Shown: piece by piece, positions 371-64,000 of the stretch
Layout: each line of letters opens with the position of its first letter
Position numbering within the stretch: position 1 is the stretch's first letter
Assembly (NCBI GenBank): GCA_032622095.1
Contig: CP136066.1
Span: 190,392,816 to 190,456,815 of the forward strand
Length of the DNA: 64,000 nt
From: Siphonodentalium dalli
Taxonomy: Eukaryota > Mollusca > Scaphopoda > Gadilida > Siphonodentaliidae
Direction of reading: 5' to 3'
Program-made: the position numbers and the translations under genes
Notes under the pieces: model-generated
Databases searched by the model: none
Seen by the model: only the letters and a program-made list of their open reading frames with translations
Told to the model about the DNA's origin: nothing

Positions 371-1416
371 TATTTTAAGCCTTGGGCGCAACACGGATTC
401 GCCAGGAAGCACGACGCCCCCAGAAAATTTTGTCGCGAAGATCGGGAAACGTGAGAGCCAAGGCCATCTGCCGCCGTAGGAATCGGCAAGGGGGCGTCCC
501 AAGGGGAGACCAGCGAGGATGGAAAGCTAAATAAGGCATTACCCGGATCAGTTCTGTCTCTTGCCGGAGCGTTCGGTCGGTGTATCACTGAAGCCACACG
601 GGAATCCTCGCGGCGGCGGAGAGAAGTGGAGCTGTCATCAGAACTGCGGCGGGGACAGGACGACAAAGGAGACGCTAGTGGTGACCTGGATTCATAGCGC
701 AGAAAAACGTCCTGTCGGCGACTAGCCTGGCGACTGGGCCGACAACGAGGCTGACGAACAGGATCGCGGCCACGAGAATGGGAAATCCGGCCACGAGAGG
801 CGTGGCATCCCCGTCCAGAGCCACGAGCAGGCCTGCCACGCGAAGCTGACCACGGCCGCGCACCCGTGAATCAGCCACAGATGACACACTGGCCGAAAAC
901 CCGAGAAGAAGGCCTAACACGGCCACTGGAAGCAGGACCAGCACGAGACGAGCTGGCAGACGCATCCTGGCGACTGCTACGAGACGAACGGTCGCGGGCC
1001 CGACCGCGAGATCCTGTACGAACCATAGGAGAAATACGGGAATGCCACCGAACGACAAACACAAACAGGGAAAACACGTGCACGACCCACGAAAATAGGT
1101 AACGCCGACGGAACAGGACGCAGACAGAGCGCACAAGGAACAAGATGATAGACGAATAAATGAAGGCTGGTGAAGAAACACGGTGACGGATGGAAACAGA
1201 TAGGAATTGACGACACAACCGAGCGTGATGCGTATAATTCAAGAGTGAATTGCTTTTTTCAGTTACCGGAAGGAGGCAGCATTCCGGGCGGATGTAAAAT
1301 GCGGACTTTTAAGTTCGGCCGATACGGAACGGATCGTACCGAAAATTCGGAATGTCTGCCGGATGACAGGATCAAAGAACCACATAAATCACCCCGAACC
1401 TTATCGGCCCTGGGTG
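371..1416. other. GC- and CpG-rich block of unknown nature
   Basis: This kilobase is visibly richer in G+C and in CpG (gcggcgg, cgcggccacgag and similar runs) than the AT-rich sequence on both sides. Several frames are open across it, including a hydrophobic one on the minus strand (1181 to 675), but long open frames are expected where GC is high. None shows a recognisable domain, a convincing start context or a repeat pattern. It could be an unmethylated CpG island with a promoter, or a fragment of a GC-rich mobile element. It ends where the 36-bp terminal repeat at 1417 begins, so it probably lies outside that transposon. Confidence 0.4.
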
Positions 1417-1452
1417 CAGTAAATCAGTGAAATTAGTAATTACGCGAAATCC
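1417..1452 (+). repeat. Left 36-bp TIR
   Basis: Exact inverted copy of 8126-8161. It is followed to about 1560 by further AATTACGCG / GGGATTTCATGAAA motifs in both orientations. Confidence 0.75.
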
Positions 1453-2049
1453 TTTGGGATGACATGAAACCACTAAACAGGGTCCGTGATTACACGTAAT
1501 TAATGAAAGTGTCAGGGATTTCATGAAACCACTAAAAGTGGCTAGGCATTACGCGTAATCACTGAAATTTCGTCACCTCAGTTCCAACTCGTTCTAAGTG
1601 CCTTTTTCAATGTTACGAGATAATCGAATGTTGACGATTTAGTACTCGTGAACTATAAGAGATACACTGGTCGGCTTGTCACCAAAATGTAGACCATTTT
1701 ATGCTCTTTCGAGCAAAATAAAAGGCAGTGCCGCAACAGTTAGTGATACTCTACCAGCGACAGTTCCATCGAGGTACCCCCTCAATTTTTTTTACATAGC
1801 ACAACATAGAACGGAATTAATGCCACTCAGTATTGTGTAGCATTTGGCAACAATAAGGTTTTTTGCAGGGCGAACTTGTTCCATGTGCCATGTCACCACC
1901 ACTTAAGTCACATGGAACACATTGGAATGAAGTTCTTCTATACAATAACGTAATAACAAATTGGAAATCAGAAAGATATTGAGGTCTAATTGTTTCATAT
2001 ACACACATTTTATGTATTATTATGTATATAGAACACTTGGTACCAAAAT

Positions 2050-4249
2050 ATGATGATGTATCGATTAGAACCTCACAACATGAATGGGGTTTATCAGTCC
2101 CAAATGAAACACCAACAGTATTCTAACCTGACGTTTATCCCAAGTATGCGTTGTTAGTGTTAGGAATTGATTGAGAAGCAACGTCATATCCATGAAGACG
2201 GCCTTAAAGCGATTTGACCCTGTGTTTACAGTGGGGATTGTATGGTGTCACTATAGTTGTGAAGTCGGCAACAAAATGATATACTACACAAAAGTTTATC
2301 TAGACACATTGCCGGCATACTGGACAGCATTTATTTCATCGCAAACGGTTCGGTAATTATATGTAAGGGTGCCATTAGCTTGTTTTGTTCTGACCAACCA
2401 ACACTGCGAAATTTAAAAATAAAAAGAAACTGCTTCCAGCCATTTACCATAAAAGTAATTCATAGGAAGTAATGGTAGAATAGGAAAAGGAGTCTATATG
2501 GATTATGGAACCTATGGCTAACTTAGCTCCAACTTATTTAAACACTTACAGAAGCATTTTCATATACTTCCAATGAACCAAACATCAGAACCAAATTATT
2601 GGTTACTTCTATGGGACACCATTGAATTATATATGACACCCATTTCAATTATTCTTGCAATGCGTACCTGAGAAAAACAGATTTGATGATAAAGTATTGA
2701 AAAATAGCAGACATTTACGTGATAATCACAGAGCCATGGATAACGCGGTATAATAGCGAGTGCTCAGACTGACCACACTTATAAATCCCTTGCTACTTAG
2801 ACTCGTGAGCAACACTTAATGAATGAAAGTAAGCGTTGAGATCTATAAGACATTACTAGTACACAAACTGGTTAGTCACCGATGAGTGTTACTGACCAAT
2901 TCGGAGCGGAGGCCTATATAACGTGTGCGAGGTGACCGTGCAGTCACCATAATATCACAAGGCCACAGATAATACATTTACATTGTCTGTGTCGACTAAA
3001 CACAATTGAGACATCAGAGGAAATCAACTCGTCGAATTGAAAAACTGATAACGATTAGATTATATTCTCTACCAACTTTAAAAGTCGGGGCCGCTACGTT
3101 ATAATGTCGGGGTGGAAGTTAGTTATTATATAATATACATCACGATGTTGGGCCACAGAGGTAGAACCTGTCCGGAGGCGATAGACGCGACACCACCAGC
3201 GCTAAAGTGTCATGATCTATCGATTACCGAAGTTCCTCTACGTATAATATTATGTGTATTAAGACTTAGCGTGGGAACAAATTCAATAAACAAAGCTCTT
3301 GAATATCAAAATGTTTAATGGAAAAACATCAGTATATAACTAACTCAAACCAATACATGTATGTTTCTGAATTTTCCTTTTCGATGTAAACATTACTGAC
3401 GAAAAAATACCGATATTTCAAGATTGTCTCTGGGTACGCTCCAATATAAGTATGGACATCAAATAACTTACTATAGTTTTGCCGAAGAACTGCGTCACTG
3501 TCATCACATGCATAATTGAGAATCGATACAAACATATATAGATACGTTTGCATTCCAAGGAGCGCCAAGCAGGCAGGTGGAATATGTAAGCAACGATGTG
3601 CATATCTAATTTGCTCCCATGCATATCATGGTGCATATGGATGGATATGCACATCTGCTTTGTTGTTCTACGCATATTTTGCAGATATCCATCACAGACA
3701 CACCGAAAATCTAGTTTGGTCGCAATCGATGAAAATAAAGCCGCCAAAGCAGCTGCCAAAGGTTGACATTTAATTTACCCATACACGTTTGCACGTCAAG
3801 TTAAAATAATGTAATATTGTAAACTTCTATAACCAAAACGCTCCCAGCACTTTAAGTTGGACTTATCACTAATACGTCCAACCATTTATATGATGCACCA
3901 TTGTTTCCCTTGTCCAAATCTACTCACGTTAGTTAGAGAATCTGTCATTGAGTGGAATTGCACATTTGATACACCATCCACCATAAATGACATCTAAAAT
4001 GACCTCTTCTTGAGTATAGTTCGTGCTAAATGTTTCACACAAACTCCAAGCAATGTCTATGAATGAAACCTACATAACAACGAGTTTCTGATTGAAAACT
4101 GTTAACATGTACCACGTGAAACCATGACAAAAATGCGATTGCGATGTGGAATGGGTTGGATTCCTGCCTCCTCATCCGAACACGGGTTGTATTGCCCTCA
4201 CGCTCACAACAAATATTGACATCTAGTGTATAAGTGGTAGTGTTGATAT
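2050..4249. other. TE interior, no recognisable gene
   Basis: AT-rich sequence inside the 1417-8161 element. Short frames (for example 3112-3318 and 3418-3759 on opposite strands) overlap each other and show no domain. I see no repeat above background. Confidence 0.35.
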
Positions 4250-13790: not shown

Positions 13791-14764
13791 CAGTATTGGA
13801 GACATGACAATCTGCGGGATGGGATGGGATATGGGACAAAACGACAATCTGCGGGACAGAATTTCAAATTGCGTGGGACGGCCGATATCTCTAGGCAAAC
13901 AGGGCGTAGGGGGCTCATTTTGGTGTCTAATGAAAGGCCCACATTCGCCCTATCCACACATATTAAACCCGCCACTGACCGGACACCAGAAGTTGCATTA
14001 TTTGATCGACAACTGACCTAACATGGGGTGGAATTTGGGATAGAATGACAATCTGCGGGACAGGATTTTCAAATTGCGTGGGACGGCCGATATCTCGAGG
14101 AATACAGCGCGCAGAGGGCTCCCTTTGGTGTCTAACGAAAGGTCCACATTCGCCCTATTCACACATATTAACCGCGCCACTGAACGGACAAAGGAAGCTA
14201 CATTATTCGGTCGACAACTGACCTATCATAAAATGCCACAAACACGAAAAACTGCGTTCGACATTAATGTTTAGAATTAAGATTTCTCGATGAATACGCT
14301 AGCAAACAACAAGTTTTAGGTATCAAATAACGCAGTGGAATACTGTGCATTCGTTTTTAGCTACAATATGGATGTTTTAGTGCGAATATTGTAATGGCGA
14401 ACACGCAAACACGCGCCGATAAAACAGCTAAAAATAGACTCGATGTTTACAATTACAGGATCGATTTCAGCTGGTATATTCAATATAATGGGGCGTATAG
14501 TATATCAAAATGTAGGATTAGACACAGTAAATGTATTTTTTTTCCAAATGAGTCCACTACGCGGTGAAATTGTTGCAAAAATTCGCTCCAAGATATTCGC
14601 ACTTATTTTTATTTCAGTTGTGACTAAAAGCCTAGATGCCGGAGCACGGCGACAAAAAGCCAAGTTACAAAATAGATCAACTGGTTTGAACGAATGAATA
14701 TGTCAATGGTAAGACTATTCAACAGAATATTCAAATCAAATAGTGTTTATAGACTTAAAAACGT

Positions 14765-15520
14765 ATGTGTCCGCCATTCATGCGGTGGAGGTTCTCATAT
14801 TATCTGCCAGTCATACGCGGGGGAGGTTCTCATATGAACATATTATCTGCCGGTCATGCGCGGTGGAGGTTCATATTATCCGCCGGTCATACGCGAGGGA
14901 AGTTCTCATATTATCCTCCGGTCATACGCGGGGGAGGATCTGATATGAACATATTATCCACCGGTCATACGCGGTGGAGGTTCATATTATCCACCAGTCA
15001 TACGCGAGGGAGGTTCTCATATTATCCTCCGGTCATACGCGGGGGAGGATCTGATATGAACATATTATCTGCCGGTCATACGCGGTGGAGGTTCATATTA
15101 TCCACCGGTCATACGCGAGGGAGGTTCTCATATTATCCTCCAGTCATACGTAGTGGAGGTTCTCATATGAACATATTATCCGCCGGTCATACGCGGTGGA
15201 GGTTCATATTATCTGCCGGTCATACGCGAGGGAGGTTCTCATAGTATCCTCCGGTCATACGTGGGGGAGGTTCTGATATGAACATATTATCCGCCGGTCA
15301 TACGCGATGGAGGTTCATATTATCCACCGGTCATACGTAGGGGAGGTTCTCATATGAACATATTATCCACCGGTCATACGCGGTGGAGGTTCTCATATGA
15401 ACATATTATCCGCCGGTCATATGCGAGGGAGGTTCTCATATTATCCGCCGGTCATACGCGAGGGAGGTTCTCATATTATCCTCCAGTCATACGTGGGGGA
15501 GGTTATCATATTATCCTCCG
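14765..15520 (+). repeat. Minisatellite in left arm of the palindrome
   Basis: Units of about 33-47 bp built on GGTCATACGCGGGGGAGGTT, TCATATTATC and an optional ATATGAACA segment, with alternating end variants (CCGCC, CCACC, CCTCC). Confidence 0.85.
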
Positions 15521-16430
15521 GTGGATAATATGTTCATATGAGAACCTCCCCAACGTATGACCGGAGGATAATATGAGAACCTCCCTCGCGTATGACCGGT
15601 GGATAATATGAACCTCCACCGCGTATGACCGGCGGATAATATGTTCATATCAGAACCTCCCATGTGTATGACCGGAGGATAATATGAGAAATTCCCTGGC
15701 GTATGACCGGCGGATAATATGAGAACCTCCCTCGCGTATGACCGGCGGATAATATGTTCATATGAGAACCTCCCCAACGTATGACCGGAGGATAATATGA
15801 GAACCTCCACCGCGTATGACCGGCAGATAATGTGTTCATATCAGAACCTCCCACGCGTATGACCGGAGGATAATATGAGAACTTCCCTCGCGTATGACCG
15901 GCGGATAATATGAACCTCCACCGCTGATGACCGGCAGATAATATGTTCATATGAGAACCTCCCCCACATATGACCGGTGGATAATATGAACCTCCACTGC
16001 GTATGACCGGCGGATAATATGTTCATATCAGAACCTCCCCAACGTATGACCGGAGGATAATATGAGAACCTCCCTCGCGTATGACTGTGGATAATATGAG
16101 AACCTCCCTCGCGTATGACCGGCGGATAATATGTTCATATGAGAACCTCCCCAACGTATGACCGGAGGATAATATTGAGAACCTCCCTCGCGTATGACCG
16201 GTGGATAATATGAACCTCCACCGCGTATGACCGGCAGATAATATGTTCATATCAGAACCTCCCACGCGTATGACCGGAGGATAATATGAGAACTTCCCTC
16301 GCGTATGACCGGCGGATAATATGAACCTCCACCGCTGATGACCGGCAGATAATATGTTCATATGAGAACCTCCCCCGCGTATGACTGGCAAATAATATGA
16401 GAACCTCCACCGCATATGAATGGCGGACAC
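15521..16430 (-). repeat. Inverted partner minisatellite in right arm
   Basis: The same units as 14765-15520 in the opposite orientation (AACCTCCC..CGTATGACCGG). The switch of orientation occurs within about 15 bp at CCTCCGGTGGATAATATG. Confidence 0.85.
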
Positions 16431-17446
16431 ATAAGTTTTAAAGTCTATAAACACTATTTGATTTGAATATTCTTTTGAATAGTCTTACCATTGACATATT
16501 CATTCGTTCAAACCAGTTGATCTATTTTGTAACTTGGCTTTTAGTCGCCGGGCTCCGGCATCTGGGCTTTTAGTCACAACTGAAATAAAAATAAGTGCGA
16601 ATAACTTGGAGCGAATTTCTGCAACAATTTCACCGCCTGGTGGACCCATTTGGCAAAAAATACATTCCCTGTGTCTAATCCTACATTTTGATATATATAC
16701 GCCCCATTATATTGAATATACCAGCTGAAATCGATCCTGTAATTGTAAACATCGAGTCTATTTTTAGCTGTTTTATCGGCGCGTGTTTGCGTGTTCGCCA
16801 TTACAATATTCCACTGCGTTATTTGATACATAAAACTTGTTGTTTGCTAGCGTATTCATCGAGAAATCTGGATTCTAAATATTAATGTCGAACGCAGTTT
16901 TTCGTGTTTGTGGCATTTTATGTTAGGTCAGTTGTCGACCGAATAATGTAACTTCCGGTGTCCGGTCAGTGGCGGGGTAAATATGTGTGGATATGGCGAA
17001 TGTGGACCTTTCGTTAGACACCAAAAGGAGCCCTCTACGCGCTGTATTCCTCAAGATATCGGCCGTCCCACGCAATTTGAAAATCCTGTCCCGCAGATTG
17101 TCATTCTATCCCAAATTCCACCCCATGTTAGGTCAGTTGTCGATCAAATAATGCAACTTCTGGTGTCAGGTCAGTGGCGGGGTTAATATGTATGGATAGG
17201 GCGAATGTGGGCCTTTCGTTAGACACCAAAATGAGCCCCCTACGCCCTGTACTCCTCGAGATATCGGCCGTCCCACGCAATTTGAAATTCTGTCCCGCAG
17301 ATTGTCGTTTTGTCCCATATCCCATCCCATCCCGCAGATTGTCATGTCCCCAGTATTGTATGATTTTTTTACATGATAATCGAGTCTATTCACTCGTCGC
17401 GGTACTGTTCCGATACATTTGAGATCGAGAGAACACACTAATTGCC

Positions 17447-44926: not shown

Positions 44927-45373
44927 CTAGTTTAGCTGTGATCTGGCCTCGAATAACCGCTTGACTACGTTGCAGATTTGGGAGCATATCTGAGCTGTGT
45001 CATTGGCTAATATATGTGTGAGTTGGTCCAATCTACTCATCAATCGAAAATTGATAAAATTGTCACCCATAATTTTAATGAGTTCATTCCGTATAGGAAG
45101 AAATGTTGGACAATCAATTAGGAAATGCCTCTCATCGTCGATTGCTTCGTCATTACACATAACACATAATCTTCTGGCTAAAGGAATCGGTGGTTGGGCG
45201 TGACGACCCTTTTCAATGGCAAGAGAATGATTACTTATTCTCAGACGTGTAAATGCTGAGCGGTCAGCTAGCGACGCTGTATTTAAGAGATAGGGTTCTC
45301 GGACAATATCTATTTTAAAAAGTCGATATGTTCTTAATTTATTTTTACCAGTATTTGAAACACCATCGCGCAT
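44927..45373 (-). pseudogene. LINE ORF2 C-terminus with Cys-His motif
   Basis: A 148-codon frame. From GKNKLRTYRLFK onward it resembles the region after the RT in CR1-like ORF2 proteins. Residues LCVMCNDEAIDDERHFLIDC give a C-x2-C-x10-H-x4-C pattern typical of the terminal zinc-knuckle-like element. It ends in a stop at 44927. The start is not genuine: this frame is the distal part of a longer ORF2, separated from the RT by frameshifts and the 27-bp repeat insertion at about 45514-45595. Confidence 0.75.
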
Positions 45374-45509
45374 ACTTGTTCTGAAATTTTCAGTGTGATT
45401 TTCTCTATATATAAGTTGGCATTTAAATCACTTTAGAAGCTTGTTAATTAGAGGCTTGTTGTTAGTAATGTCGGAGGGTCAAGCCAAAATGACTCCAGAC
45501 TTTTGAATA

Positions 45510-45595
45510 TCGAATTCCCAGCCACCCCGCTGCGCTGTTAATTCCCAGCTACCCCGCTGCGCTGTTAATTCCCAGCTACCCCGTTGCGCTGTTCG
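45510..45595. repeat. Three 27-bp repeats inside LINE ORF2
   Basis: AATTCCCAGC(C/T)ACCCC(G)CTGCGCTGTT is repeated three times head to tail. Twenty-seven is a multiple of three, so on the minus strand the repeat adds nine-residue blocks without shifting frame. In the ORF2 reading frame coming from the RT, however, the block introduces a stop. Confidence 0.85.
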
Positions 45596-47420
45596 CGCAT
45601 TGCATCATTTAATATGCCACTGGAACAGCTGGATGAGATTTTAACCGCATATGAAGCCATTCTACACAAAGCGTCAATATATAACGGGTAGCTCCCTAAT
45701 TCGGCTCTGACTGCATTGTTTGAAGCGTATTTACCAACTCCAAGTATTTGTTTGCAATGTGTGATATGAAGTTTCTCACACGGATAACGTTCGTGATTTT
45801 TGATTGTTAATTCACTTGCCCATAATTCACTGCCATATAGAAGTATAGTATAGGCTTGATTAACTTATCAAACAGTTTAAGGGAAGTTTTTAGAGGGAGG
45901 GGCGCTTTATTTGCACACGCACGAGATATTGAATAAAGAGCTTTTCGTCCTTTGCCACTCAAATTATTTACGGCCTGCGTGAATTTTCCTGTACTGGAAA
46001 ATGTCATTCCGAGATAGGTATATTCGTCAACCAGATCCAAGGGATTATCTTCGAGGAAAAACTGTGGGTGAACTTTTGGCTTCCTCAATCTGAAAATCAA
46101 GCATTTCATCTTCTCCGTGTTTATCGACGGGGCATTTTGTCGCGTGAAGTACTGGAGTTTGTCTAAACATCGCTGAAGTCCTTCTGGACTCTCAGAGACC
46201 AAAACTAAGTCATCTGCGAAGAGCAAATGATTGAGAGCGCTAGATCCAATACGTAACGGTTCACATTTGTCATCGAAAATTTCCTTAATGTCATGAATGA
46301 ATATTTTAAATAGTAAGGGCGCTATTATATACCCTTGGCGTACTCCAAATGTGGAGAGATCTGAAGGACTGATACCGTTGCTTGTATTTGTGCTATAAAG
46401 ACTTGACTTGTATAGTGATTTTAATATTTCCAATGAAAATCCTGAAGTGCCAGCTGTTTCCATTTTTGTAAAAAGAATTTGTCGATTAACAGTATCAAAA
46501 GCTTTCCTAAAATCTACAAATGTTGCATAGACCATAGACAGGTTTCTTAGAGGATTTATATTTCTGTATTGACGCATGTAGGACAAAGGGGCTATCGGTT
46601 GTACTTTTGCCAGTACAAAAGCCGAATTGGTTTTCGCTGATTATGTTTTTAGCATCGATAAATCTAGCTAATCTGTGATTAATAATTTTATTGAATAGTT
46701 TCCCTACTGACGAGCTCAATGCTATTGCACGATAATTATTGGGATCGTCTTTTGCTCCCTTTTATGTATTAAACTGAGAACAGACTGACTCCATTCAGGT
46801 GGGTAATATCCGAATTGTAAAATGTTATTGAACGTTTGAACACATTCGGCAGTCATTAGAGGTACTGCACATTTGAGCAATTCATTCAAAATCTGATCCG
46901 GACGAACCGCCTTTCTTGTTTTCAGCTCACACGTGGCGGACAGAATTTCATCCGCAGTGATTGGACCATTATTGAGAGATATATCAGGTGTTTTAGATCG
47001 ACATATTGGTGGACCACTTCCTGAAGAATTAGGTTGAGTAGGGCAGTATAGATTTTTGAAAAAGTCAGTAGCTGTGTCAGCATCCAACTCATCCGATGGT
47101 TTATTGTTTTTATCTCTTAAGTCATCTATACTTCGCCAATATTGTCACCTGTTCCTAATTCATCAAAACTATTATGGAGTTTCGCGTAGAATTATCTTTT
47201 TTTTACGTTTCAATTCCTTCTTATATGATTTTTTTATTATTGAAAAATTGGTTCTTAGGTTTGTATTAAAGGGATTATTTCTAATTTCTCTCGCGATACT
47301 GTCGAAACTTATTTTCAAGTCTTTACACCTGTTATCAAACCATTTTCTTTTGCGTACATGTCTTTTCTTCACGGCAACCTTGGAGCAGGCGTGCCTGTTT
47401 ATTTTGTTTATAATACACAT
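45596..47420 (-). pseudogene. LINE ORF2 reverse transcriptase, frameshifted
   Basis: Pieces in three frames read in order. 47420-47172 is the linker after the endonuclease (KWFDNRCKDLK...). 47087-46722 is the RT fingers (ADEILSATCELKTRKA, PPEWSQSVLSLIHK). 46719-46507 contains ALSSSVGKLFNKIINHRL and ISENQFGFCTGKST. 46586-45807 contains motif A FVDFRKAFDTVNR, motif B GVRQGYIIAPLLF and the catalytic motif C LLFADDLVLV. The last frame continues past 45807 through CKQILGVGKYASNNAVRAEL to about 45600. Motifs A and C keep the catalytic aspartates, but frameshifts make the whole non-functional. It belongs to the LINE lacking its endonuclease. Confidence 0.88.
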
Positions 47421-47428
47421 TATATCAT

Positions 47429-48285
47429 CTAATCATCTAATGCTTCGGTTACTCCCTGTTTGTACTTAGAGTATGTGCGTAATCGATACTGAGTCAATTC
47501 CTGCTTCACGGAAGGTGAATTAATTTCCAATGCAAGTCTACGTGGATTTACATAACGAAGCACCGAATCGCCGAGTATCAGGTGAATTGTTTTTGAGTCA
47601 TATTGATTGCTTCTGCGCCATCGTTGTTTTGAACAGCCGGGTTTATCCTGATCTGGTTCAGTTTGTTTGGTCACAGGTGTTTCCGAATGAATGAAGGCGG
47701 TGTCAGACAATACATCACATTTGTTTGATGTTTTTATCGCCGGTATTGTTATTTCTGATGATTTTTGTGCCGAGTTTTCAATTTTATCCCGTTTTTGAGT
47801 TTTCTTTAATTGTTGCTTCTCAGTAACAATAAGTTGATTTTCTAACCGTTGGATGCGTCCAGTGAGTTCATATTCCATGCTTGTTTGATTTTAATAGTTT
47901 CCAATATGTCTTGTAATTCTGATAGAGTCATTTTCATTGCAAAGTTCGAAATTTTGTCGTTATAATTGACGTTCACGGTAGGCACATTTTTCTTCAAAAT
48001 TGTAGTACGAATACTGGCGAAGATCTTTGGTACCTGCAGTTTCCTAACTTGTGTCGTGGGCGTTTTGGGAGATTGGTTTTCAGTTATTATATTAGGATCA
48101 GACCCTACCTCAATCGGAAGCACTTCTCTTACAAATCCCAACTGGAATACTAAAGGAAGTTCTTTTTCTATCCACCACTTCATATTCCTTTTAGATCCTT
48201 GGACCATGAATTTATTCCTTGTGCGGTATACGTGTACCACAATCTTTCCTCCCTTGCCTGACCGCGCAACACAAGTCCAACACAA
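47429..48285 (-). pseudogene. LINE ORF1 protein, SGNH-like domain cut off
   Basis: Two overlapping frames (48285-47842 and 47878-47429) joined by one frameshift near 47875. The N-terminal part has a CWTC motif and VHVYRTRNKFMVQGS..WWIEKELPL, a segment I recognise from ORF1 proteins of CR1-like elements in invertebrates. Next comes a coiled-coil-like stretch (LTGRIQRLENQLIVTEKQQL). The C-terminal part starts an SGNH-hydrolase-like domain (HLILGDSVLRYVNPRRL) that stops soon after. At its end TTAGATGA is duplicated next to the linker of ORF2, which looks like the junction of the deletion that removed the rest of the domain and the endonuclease. Confidence 0.65.
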
Positions 48286-49773: not shown

Positions 49774-49951
49774 GGTTTATGTTTGGTTCTTGCGTTGGCA
49801 GAAGCCTCCAACCTGGGTGATCTGTGTTTGTTCACCCCACCCACAAAGCCATCGCTCTGCACCGTAAAGTCTTCCTCGTGCGTCAAAGGAAAGTGTGAAT
49901 GCGACTCCGGATATTTCCAGATGGCAAACAACAACTACTATTGCTATCCAG
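49774..49951 (+). CDS. Exon 3: signal peptide end and first six-cysteine EB-like module
   Basis: The acceptor TTGTTTCTTTCCAG precedes 49774, phase 0, and the donor GTTAGT follows at 49952, leaving phase 1. It encodes GLCLVLALAEAS, then the mature start NLGDLC and a cysteine pattern C-x10-C-x6-C-x4-C-x1-C-x13-C. The C-x1-C followed by an aromatic pair and a final C (CECDSGYFQ...YYC) resembles EB/EGF-like modules of secreted or cell-surface invertebrate proteins. Upstream in the same frame, ATG at 49753 could also start a signal peptide (MLVVSFQ plus GLCLVLALAEAS), but it would mean that the strong acceptor is unused. I favour splicing from exon 2. The function is unknown: adhesion, matrix or immune recognition are possible. 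Confidence 0.72.
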
Positions 49952-50059
49952 GTTAGTATACGCCATGCTAGCCTCCTTCATTACTAAAGACGGTGTATGG
50001 CTTCCGTGAGTTTTTCGTGTTGATTAAACTATATATGGTATAAAATACCACTGTGTATG

Positions 50060-59919: not shown

Positions 59920-60081
59920 AGAAGCTACCGAGGCATTACTGCAACTTGGACCGTAAAATCATTGGCAAACAGTGTGTGGACACCGCTACCTGTAAAGCTT
60001 CCTACGTCAATGGGGAATACAAAACCGCGACGTGTGTGTGCGATGAAGGATACTATCCAAATGGAACAAAATGCGTTGAAA
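59920..60081 (+). CDS. Exon 4: second six-cysteine EB-like module
   Basis: A 162-bp symmetric phase 1-1 exon between the acceptor CGATTGTAG (to 59919) and the consensus donor GTAAGT at 60082. The G left over from exon 3 plus AG gives Glu, then KLPRHYC. Cysteine spacing is C-x10-C-x5-C-x13-C-x1-C-x10-C, ending CVCDEGYYPNGTKC, the same C-x1-C..aromatic..C close as exon 3. The 1-1 phase lets such modules duplicate without breaking the frame, typical of extracellular modular proteins. The phase continues correctly into exon 5. The family (EB versus EGF-like) is a judgement from cysteine pattern only. Confidence 0.78.
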
Positions 60082-60999: not shown

Positions 61000-62348
61000 G
61001 ATGAATGTACACTGTTGGTCACTTGTTCGGTTTTTATAAGATTGGACTATTACGCCATCGATAGGGTGTATATTGACATGGTGATTTGACCGTGTCGTAG
61101 GAGCGATAGAGTAAATGTGATTAAAAGCGTACTCACTATTTTGCGTACTTGGATGGAATAAACGTGAGTAGAAACGTACGAGTTTTGTATGTTCTCTATA
61201 ATATCGGCCAGCTAACACAACGTACAAGTCGACGTCACACTAACTCGGTGATTTCATTCCGATCGGTCATGCGATCAGAATCTGTTTTCGCTAATATACG
61301 TTGTCGATAATATACGTTGTCGATAATATACGATGTCGATAATATACGATGTCGCTAATCCGTAATTCACCCCACGATTGTGATGCTTCTTTTGAAACAT
61401 GGCTTGGCCGGTGAAATCTTTTCTTTTGGGTTAATAGTTTGGTTTTGCGCTATGGCAGTCGTTGGCTCTTCGCCACCACGAAGACATAAACTTGTCTTTG
61501 AAGGTGGACACTGCTTACATATTGGTGGAAGGCAAATACGTGCCTTGTTTACGCCAGAAGACAAACACTTGCCTCGTTTGCACATAGCGTGGAATTGAGG
61601 TCAACAGTTTCGGTGCGATCTTATGTTATATTTGTATAGGCAGTAGGCTACTTTTACTGCATCATAGCACATGGACCTGTTATCATGAACGTGGCGACAG
61701 GGTTTCTCACCCCCTAGATCGTGCCATGGATCTCTACTCCAACTACACCCGTAGAGAGCATACTCCACTAGTTCAAAACCTGGGAAATTGTTGTTGTAAC
61801 AGGTAATTCTATAAGTTTATAATATTGCAAAAACAGTGGAGGTAATACATTTATCAGTTAAGATTTGTTCCTTAATAATGTATTTCCCTGCAGGCGAAGG
61901 TCTCAAGCTCCAATATAATTTATAAATGCCTAATAATATGATCTTGAGGACGTGACCATCTCTGATTATTGGTTTCTTGTTCCTCTGCTCTACACATTTC
62001 GTATGATATACGTGCATGGCATGGGCACGCACACAACTTCTAAACAGTTAACCGTGCACTGTTGGCGGAATTCCCACATGAGTGAGGTAACGTCCGTTGT
62101 TACACGTACGCCTGGCTAATAGAACTACACATTACATTTAAAAGATAAAACCAAAGAACGAGAAATATCATTGTCTATTAGATCATTTTGCACATAGTGG
62201 CAGCGGTGTTTAACCAAATAAAGTACATTACAGTGCAGAAATACGAATATATTGTGCTCCGAAATTCACGTCCTACAGGGTACCGCATGCCAACTGGTCT
62301 CCCGGGTGTTTTATATTGCTCATAACATCTGGTCACGTTTTCTCGAAG
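61000..62348. other. Remainder of intron 4
   Basis: Includes a 16-bp tandem repeat (TAATATACG(T/A)TGTCGA, four units, about 61291-61355). Overlapping frames at 61367-61598 on both strands are unrecognised. The acceptor before exon 5 is TTTTCTCGAAG, ending at 62348. Confidence 0.4.
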
Positions 62349-62531
62349 GTATCGGTAACGGTGAACCATGCGTCTACATCCAGGCCACGTGTGACGAATG
62401 TCGTGACGTCGGTGACTATCAATGCAAAGACCACGCCGCGTGCAGAACTCTAGTCCACGTAGGCTGCGTAACTTACGTCTGCAAATGCGTCGAGGAATAC
62501 TACGTCGATAGAGATGGGATCTGTGTGAAAG
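62349..62531 (+). CDS. Exon 5: third cysteine-rich module, nine cysteines
   Basis: A 183-bp phase 1-1 exon. The leftover A from exon 4 plus GT gives Ser, followed by IGNGEPC. Spacing is C-x6-C-x2-C-x7-C-x5-C-x7-C-x4-C-x1-C-x11-C, ending CKCVEEYYVDRDGIC, which repeats the C-x1-C..YY..C close of the other two modules. The donor GTAAAT is at 62532 (AAAG before it). Reading through the donor meets a stop at 62573-62575, about 14 codons later, so splicing to a further exon beyond the window is needed for a longer protein. The last 37 nt of the exon are copied with the donor in every unit of the following minisatellite. Confidence 0.75.
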
Positions 62532-64000
62532 GTAAATATGGGAATACTACGTCAATAGAGATGACATCGGTGTGAAAGGTACTATAGGAATACTACGTCA
62601 ATAGAGATGACATCTGTGTGAAAGGTAACTATTAGAATACTACGTTAATAGAGATGGCGTCTGTGTGAAAGGTAACTATGGGAATACTACGTCAATAGAG
62701 ATGACATCGGTGTGAAAGGTAACTATAGGAATACTACGTCAATAGAGATGACATCTGTGTGAAAGGTAACTATTAGAATACTACGTTAATAGAGATGGCG
62801 TCTGTGTGAAAGGTAACTATGGGAATACTACGTTAATACAGATGGCGTCTGTGTGAAAGGTAACTATAGGAATACTACGTTAATACAGATGGCGTCTGTG
62901 TGAAAGGTAACTATAGGAATACTACGTCAATAGAGATGACATATGTGTGAAAGGTAACTATAGGAATACTACGTCAATAGAGATGACATCGGTGTGAAAG
63001 GTAACTATGGGAATACTACGTCAATAGAGATGACATCGGTGTGAAAGGTAACTATGGGAATACTACGTCAATAGAGATGACATATGTGTGGAAGGTAACT
63101 ATAGGAATACTACGTCAATAGAGATGACATCGGTGTGAAAGGTAACTATAGGAATACTACGTCAATAGAGATGACATCGGTGTGAAAGGTAACTATAGGA
63201 ATACTACGTCAATAGAGATGACATATCTGTGAAAGGTAACTATGAGAATACTACGTTAATACAGATGGCGTCTCTGTGAAAGGTAACTATGAGAATACTA
63301 CGTTAATACAGATGGCACCTGTGTGAAACGTAACTATGGGAATACTACGTTAATACAGATGGCGTCTGTGTGAAAGGTAACTATGAGAATACTACGTCAA
63401 TAGAGATGACATCTCTGTGAAAGGTAACTATTAGAATACTACGTTAATAGAGATGGCGTCTGTGTGAAAGGTAACTATGGGAATACTACGTTAATACAGA
63501 TGGCACCTGTGTGAAAGGTAACTGTGGGAATACTACGTTAATACAGATGGCGTCTCTGTGAACGGTAACTATGAGAATACTACGTTAATAGAGATGGAAT
63601 ATGTGTGAAAGGTAACTATTAGAATACTACGTTAATAGAGATGGCGTCTGTGTGAAAGGTAACTATGGGAATACTACGTTAATACAGATGGCACATGTAA
63701 GAAAGGTAACTATGGGAATACTACGTTAACACAGATGGCACCTGTGTGAAAGGTAACTATAGGAATACTACGTTAATACAGATGGCGTCTCTGTGAAAGG
63801 TAACTATGAGAATACTACGTTAATACAGATGGCACCTGTGTGAAACGTAACTATGGGAATACTACGTTAATACGGATGGCGTGTCTGTGAAAGGTAACTA
63901 TGAGAATACTACGTTAATACAGATGGCGTCTGTGTGAAAGGTAACTATGGGAATACTACGTCAATAGATATGGCGTCTGTGTGAAAGGTAACTATGGGAA
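62532..64000 (+). repeat. 47-bp minisatellite made of exon 5 end plus splice donor, ~31 copies
   Basis: Each unit consists of about 37 nt matching the end of exon 5 (GAATACTACGT(C/T)AATAGAGATG ... TGTGTGAAAG) plus about 10 nt of intron start (GTAACTATGG). The first unit in the array is the real exon end. The array continues to the window end. Variants such as GTCAATAGAGATGACAT, GTTAATAGAGATGGCGTC and GTTAATACAGATGGCACC are intermixed. Almost every copy keeps AAAG/GTAACT, a credible 5' splice site. Forty-seven is not a multiple of three, so the units are not coding repeats. Confidence 0.92.

Follow-up and report, generated by a model that had tools for sequence, protein, structure and literature searches.

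Tandem repeats that straddle a splice site have been described in lancelets and in humans, and here we analyse one that follows an EGF-like coding exon in the scaphopod Siphonodentalium dalli. It lies at the end of a 64,000-nucleotide stretch of contig CP136066.1 (C6; assembly GCA_032622095.1, positions 190,392,816 to 190,456,815, forward strand), referred to below as the window, and repeats the end of the exon together with its 5′ splice site. The closest described systems are the "mirage" minisatellites of lancelets and two human variable number tandem repeats (VNTRs). Mirages were reported in Adh3, in the globins BflGb6 and BflGb9 and in TnC (PMC3087553), and repeats of PGBD5 have been likened to them (PMC3902484). 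The VNTR in intron 18 of human ABCA7 has a 25-bp unit and 23.7 copies in the reference and includes the donor of exon 18; use of the donor in the next unit adds 25 nucleotides (nt), one unit, and leads to a frameshift and a stop (PMC5954066). The 31-bp VNTR of human CBS, c.1444_1467+7(16_21) (PMC2630376), which is also found in a table of PMC1395315, would by its name comprise 24 exonic and 7 intronic nucleotides in 16–21 copies. Internal repeats at exon–intron boundaries have also been linked to new introns in human duplicated genes (PMC2812944). Earthworm metallothionein repeats (PMC12783039) were considered as a further comparison and set aside as not relevant, and so was PMC4329672. We consider the scaphopod array probably to be a passive minisatellite of the mirage type, grown from a duplicated exon end and its 5′ splice site, in which the first donor is used, the later ones are leaky and no function of the donor series needs to be invoked.

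Within the window Tandem Repeats Finder (TRF) gives a repeat at 62494–64000 with a period of 47, 32.1 copies and 90% matches. Its full length was taken from a sequence extending 7.2 kb past the window (L001), where it occupies positions 1310–3060, equivalent to C6:190455309–190457059, and so overruns the end of the window by 244 bp. The whole array is 1751 bp long with 37.3 copies arranged head to tail; the initial annotation, which had recognised the minisatellite, put the number lower, at about 31. It consists of the exon's own copy, 36 further full copies, the second copy of the array being 46 bp instead of 47, and one partial copy. As had been proposed, the 47-bp unit is derived from the exon/intron junction. 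Its first 37 nt are the end of the exon, 12 codons (EYYVDRDGICVK) plus one nucleotide, reading GAATACTACG...GTGAAAG, and these are followed by 10 intronic bases, GTAACTATGG in the consensus, so that the donor is AAAG/GT (the slash marks the boundary). The authentic unit, at 62495–62541 on the plus strand, has GTAAATATGG after the exon end, and the decoy units run on the same strand from 62542 to 64000 and on to C6:190457059. There are 25 unit types among the 37 units and some of them recur in blocks, which suggests past turnover. A genome-wide search for the array elsewhere, which gives lower bounds, returned the array on C6 and, apart from it, only a match to one unit on C9. The pattern AAAGGTAACT gave 2305 + 2097 matches across the genome; the backward control gave more (8516 + 8773), and the result was uninformative.

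The exon from which the array springs (exon 5 of the initial annotation) is a cysteine-rich EGF-like coding exon at 62349–62531 on the plus strand. It is 183 nt long with an open frame, is taken as phase 1 at both ends and has an acceptor, TTTTCTCGAAG, assigned by sequence. In the genome search this was the lone copy on C6, and 16 further copies were found, 14 on C9 (54–78% protein identity, 184.85–187.24 Mb) and two on C3 (53–60%). In all 16 the similarity extends as far as the corresponding lysine codon (AAA), with GGT (14 copies) or TGT (two) after it, and for this reason the donor was placed at 62532. The C6 exon retains the cysteines that are invariant across the alignment of the 17 copies. 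Two additional cysteines are seen in the C9 copy L003, which has CAC and CVTCVC where C6 has CVY and CVTY, and the 17-copy alignment suggests that these are gains on C9.

The state before the array can be read from the nearest C9 gene, which is a segmental relative of the C6 locus and can be aligned with it on both sides of the array. This paralogue has a single unit, ending AAAG/GTAACTATGG with the donor GTAACT, which continues with CAGCAATG... into an ordinary intron unrelated to the unit. Without counting a 400-bp element that has TTAA at its ends, the C9 intron holds 130 bp between TATGG and TTCCGAA, and on C6 the array occupies their place. L007 and L015 also have much of the intron sequence that C6 lacks, at 77–78% identity; beyond the nearest C9 gene the comparison took in these two of the other 15 paralogues. 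The single unit with its intron is thus the older state, and the array with the loss of about 130 bp the newer. None of the 16 paralogous donors lies within a tandem array, and on this comparison the array is young and confined to the C6 gene copy.

The units themselves point to a single origin. Of its 47 positions, the authentic unit has three that differ from the C9 unit and five that differ from the array consensus. Positional counts were made on 35 of the 36 array units, omitting that of 46 bp, and all 35 differ from the exon unit at positions −25, −14 and +5. Exon and C9 are alike at −25 and −14, while every one of the 35 array units carries the change at −25 and a base other than that of the exon at −14. 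These two changes are shared throughout the array and found neither in the C6 exon nor in the C9 unit, so the array units descend from one diverged founder, and the exon copy has not been homogenised with them. At +5 it is the exon's own donor that is altered, having A where the array and C9 both have C. GTAACT is therefore probably ancestral, and the exon's own donor would have turned into GTAAAT.

The array does present the ladder of donor-like sites that the initial annotation had described, with 36 donors downstream of the authentic one, GTAAAT at 62532–62537 (plus strand). GTAACT is kept in 35 of the 36 array copies, as in the C9 paralogue, and AAAG/GTAACT exactly in 30; G at −1 together with GTAACT is kept in 32, the two beyond the exact ones having GAAG and AACG. 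Of the rest, three read AAAC/GTAACT and the 46-bp copy reads AAAG/GTACTA. The claim that nearly all copies keep AAAG/GTAACT holds in this sense for the array, though not for the exon's own donor, AAAG/GTAAAT. Donor n would add 47(n−1) nt, with one nucleotide less from n = 3 onward, rather than the roughly 47n nt first supposed. Passing over the first donor leads to a TGA at 62573–62575 on the plus strand, which ends the open reading frame listed at 62222–62575, so that the stop expected about 14 codons on was confirmed. All 36 downstream donors, when joined to exon 6, give a common tail, GKYGNTTSIEMTSV, and the same stop 14 codons on, and use of any of them would truncate the protein, as had been anticipated.

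Three further exons are taken to belong to the same gene. Exon 6, 138 nt in length, was matched at C6:190460375–190460512, and the reading frame stays open when the authentic donor is joined to it. An upstream EGF-like exon was matched at 59928–60080 (plus strand), with three paralogous exons on C9, and a likely signal-peptide and EGF-like exon at 49777–49953 (plus strand), which has an 81% identical counterpart in the C9 gene and in which the signal peptide was judged by eye; for both of these the coordinates are those of the matched part. All four exons are open in the C6 copy and in the nearest C9 gene. Between these two genes the ratio of nonsynonymous to synonymous substitution rates (dN/dS; Nei–Gojobori, small counts) is 0.59 over 213 codons from the four exons, with values for single exons of 0.61, 1.06 (the exon at 59928), 0.60 and 0.16 (exon 6). 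A Pfam scan of the four exons gave weak EGF-, EB- and TIL-like matches and some others, none of which reached the curated cut-offs. The C6 gene is probably intact and functional, if unproven.

It would seem likely, then, that one EGF-like gene copy on C6 underwent a tandem duplication of 47 bp spanning the donor, that it lost about 130 bp of the following intron and that the unit spread to 36 extra copies through ordinary minisatellite turnover. The states before and after are visible in the comparison with the C9 paralogue and the two others; which molecular steps led from one to the other, and in what order, we infer. The exon would most probably still be spliced at its own first donor. The later donors, inherited from a donor that probably worked, may leak at a low level, and the leaked mRNAs, carrying the stop 14 codons on, would be removed by nonsense-mediated decay. 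Minisatellites are in any case ordinary in the window. Entries from TRF, down to 1.9 copies, cover 20% of it and 18% of the part before the 47-bp array (35 of the 39 entries were used, the others being nested inside these), and the same intron has a 27-bp array with 4.3 copies on C6 and 12.2 on C9.

Several observations weigh against the passive minisatellite. That the first donor is used and the others seldom is something that we infer from the sequence, and the decoys score close to the authentic donor, both in the predicted duplex with U1 (−6.5 versus −6.8 kcal/mol, where the full consensus gives −14.5) and in bit score (8.44 versus 8.70); the donor frequencies behind the bit scores were not specific to this species. 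With scores so nearly equal, strong use of the later donors is possible. Donors of most C9 family members, GTACTG for example, score lower still, and weak donors may therefore be usual in this EGF-like family. The donor also shows some signs of constraint. Across the 35 array units at least 24 substitution events are needed; none of the 24 falls in the six bases GTAACT, where 3.1 would be expected (P 0.038, uncorrected and one of four stretches tested), and mean variability is as low as at −3 to +6 in only five of the 47 nine-base segments, that of the donor itself counted. From ABCA7 come three further points: skipping of exon 19 rises with VNTR length, by a route other than an extra donor; expression falls with length, by 33% between the smallest combination and the largest; and in 90% of the cases for one brain region the canonical transcript is outnumbered by the alternative ones taken together (PMC5954066).

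The signs of constraint, which are weak, also count in favour of the regulatory role proposed by the initial annotation, in which the array donors are used in proportion to their number and array length sets the amount of full-length protein. The 36 donor-like sites, 30 of them identical to the C9 donor from AAAG to GTAACT, and the stop that follows use of every later one are as such a ladder would have them, and a review links more repeats of the CBS VNTR to lower CBS activity (PMC5188458). Over the ten bases AAAG/GTAACT, however, three events were found against 5.1 expected (P 0.22), and 13 of the 47 ten-base segments have as few or fewer. Conservation specific to the donor, judged from positional variability and minimum event counts, is unconvincing because GAATACTACGT, a part of the exon remote from the donor, is equally invariant, with one event against 5.6 expected (P 0.014); there is no convincing evidence of selection on the decoys in these 35 units, and a weak hint remains. 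Furthermore, the ABCA7 isoform that is one unit longer makes up 2 ± 1% (the value assigned by its order in the text), is independent of VNTR length and was not regarded by the authors as the cause of the drop in expression (PMC5954066), and regular splicing is reported as intact in the lancelet mirages (PMC3087553). With no clear donor conservation, no array at any paralogous donor and an authentic donor that scores marginally higher than its copies, tuning by copy number is unsupported, though unrefuted, and we regard it as unlikely. A copy-number rheostat, in which the number of working donors sets the share of stop-bearing isoforms and the C-to-A change at +5 was selected for competition of the authentic donor with its own copies, is very unlikely. 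Array length might instead act as in ABCA7, a longer array giving more skipping of the next exon or lower expression. The length of exon 6 is a multiple of three, and its skipping would remove one EGF-like domain without a shift of frame. Such an effect could still operate on C6; the ABCA7 repeat differs in sequence, however, and C6 has been seen at one array length only, and we think it unlikely.

An array of dozens of predicted U1-pairing sites within about 1.7 kb might also serve as a sink for the U1 small nuclear ribonucleoprotein (snRNP), which the initial annotation had raised, or offer it a binding platform, the intron being shielded or silenced in this way. A single locus would hardly deplete a snRNP as abundant as U1, each site pairs only moderately, at −6.5 kcal/mol against −14.5 for the full consensus, and the array is found in one of the 17 gene copies looked at; this idea too is unsupported, if not refuted, and is to our minds exceedingly improbable. 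Hardly more credible is nascent intron gain or recursive splicing, with AAAG/GTAACT acting also as an acceptor or ratchet point, or a unit founding a new exon. Most units do have the AG/GT proto-splice site, and an intron-gain model has been published for lancelet mirages (PMC3087553), but as acceptors or ratchet points the units were rejected for their poor pyrimidine tract, with a mean of 53% at −15 to −5 (36 units, range 36–64%) compared with 82% and 73% at two acceptors read in the same gene. The C6 copy could finally be a decaying duplicate, with the array in a functionless gene, as its overall dN/dS, the value of 1.06 in the exon at 59928 and its isolation from the relatives on C9 and C3 might suggest. 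Its four open exons, the low dN/dS of exon 6 and the cysteines it retains argue otherwise, and we consider decay improbable.

A number of other features were seen. At least 14 paralogues of the EGF-like exon lie, in both orientations, in C9:184851507–187240072 (L003–L017), where distant inverted copies can be highly similar (L005 at 187.11 Mb and L006 at 184.85 Mb, 97.5% over 2204 bp, inverted). One paralogue has an in-frame TGA in exon 6 (C9:185028432–185028566) and may be dead. The 400-bp element in the L003 intron after the exon ends in TTAACCCTTTACCC/GGGTAAAGGGTTAA and is 97.5–97.8% identical over 401 bp to copies at three other paralogous loci, L006, L010 and L015, with a copy in pieces in L011; it resembles a short non-autonomous element with TTAA as its insertion site. 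In the window, two 35-bp arrays at 14787–16419, apparently reverse complements placed head to head, lie between arrays with a period of 205 bp at 13819–14229 and 16920–17330, and together they are possibly one large inverted-repeat structure. Broken open frames on the minus strand at 44927–47890 resemble, by eye from their translations, a non-LTR (long terminal repeat) reverse transcriptase.

Compared with the described systems, the C6 array shares three features with a mirage. The repeat lies across an exon–intron boundary that is supported by 16 paralogues, most of its units carry the duplicated splice signal, and the unit at the exon side of the cluster has escaped homogenisation, as its differences at −25, −14 and +5 indicate. 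In the lancelet mirages AG/GT signals are likewise found in many units and the boundaries of the cluster escape homogenisation, and either the 5′ or the 3′ boundary can be repeated (PMC3087553, PMC3902484). The units there are 150–160 bp in BflGb6, with six and three copies in two haplotypes, and 10–72 bp in Adh3, whereas C6 has 37 copies of 47 bp in a different gene and is known from one genome sequence alone. Like the human VNTRs, the array adjoins an exon and repeats its 5′ splice site. The ABCA7 repeat also directly adjoins its exon and includes the donor, and its product from a later donor carries a stop, as is predicted for C6; its unit begins at the GT, as intron sequence, while 37 of the 47 nt are exonic on C6, and its length is polymorphic and bears on the skipping of exon 19, on expression and on disease risk, where C6 is represented by a single assembly. 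The CBS repeat has by its name the same anatomy, with an exon end and intron start in each unit, but a shorter unit, fewer copies and an unrelated gene. The C6 array by itself shows no new mechanism, and with splice-site-spanning repeats already in print for lancelet and human it adds a large new example to a phenomenon already known. Its value is that the state before the array is kept in a paralogue, so that its birth can be read base by base, from one unit through a lost piece of intron and a founder with two private changes to the expansion, and that a single exon is followed by a row of over 30 almost identical 5′ splice sites, a natural competition experiment in which the success of a first donor could be studied.
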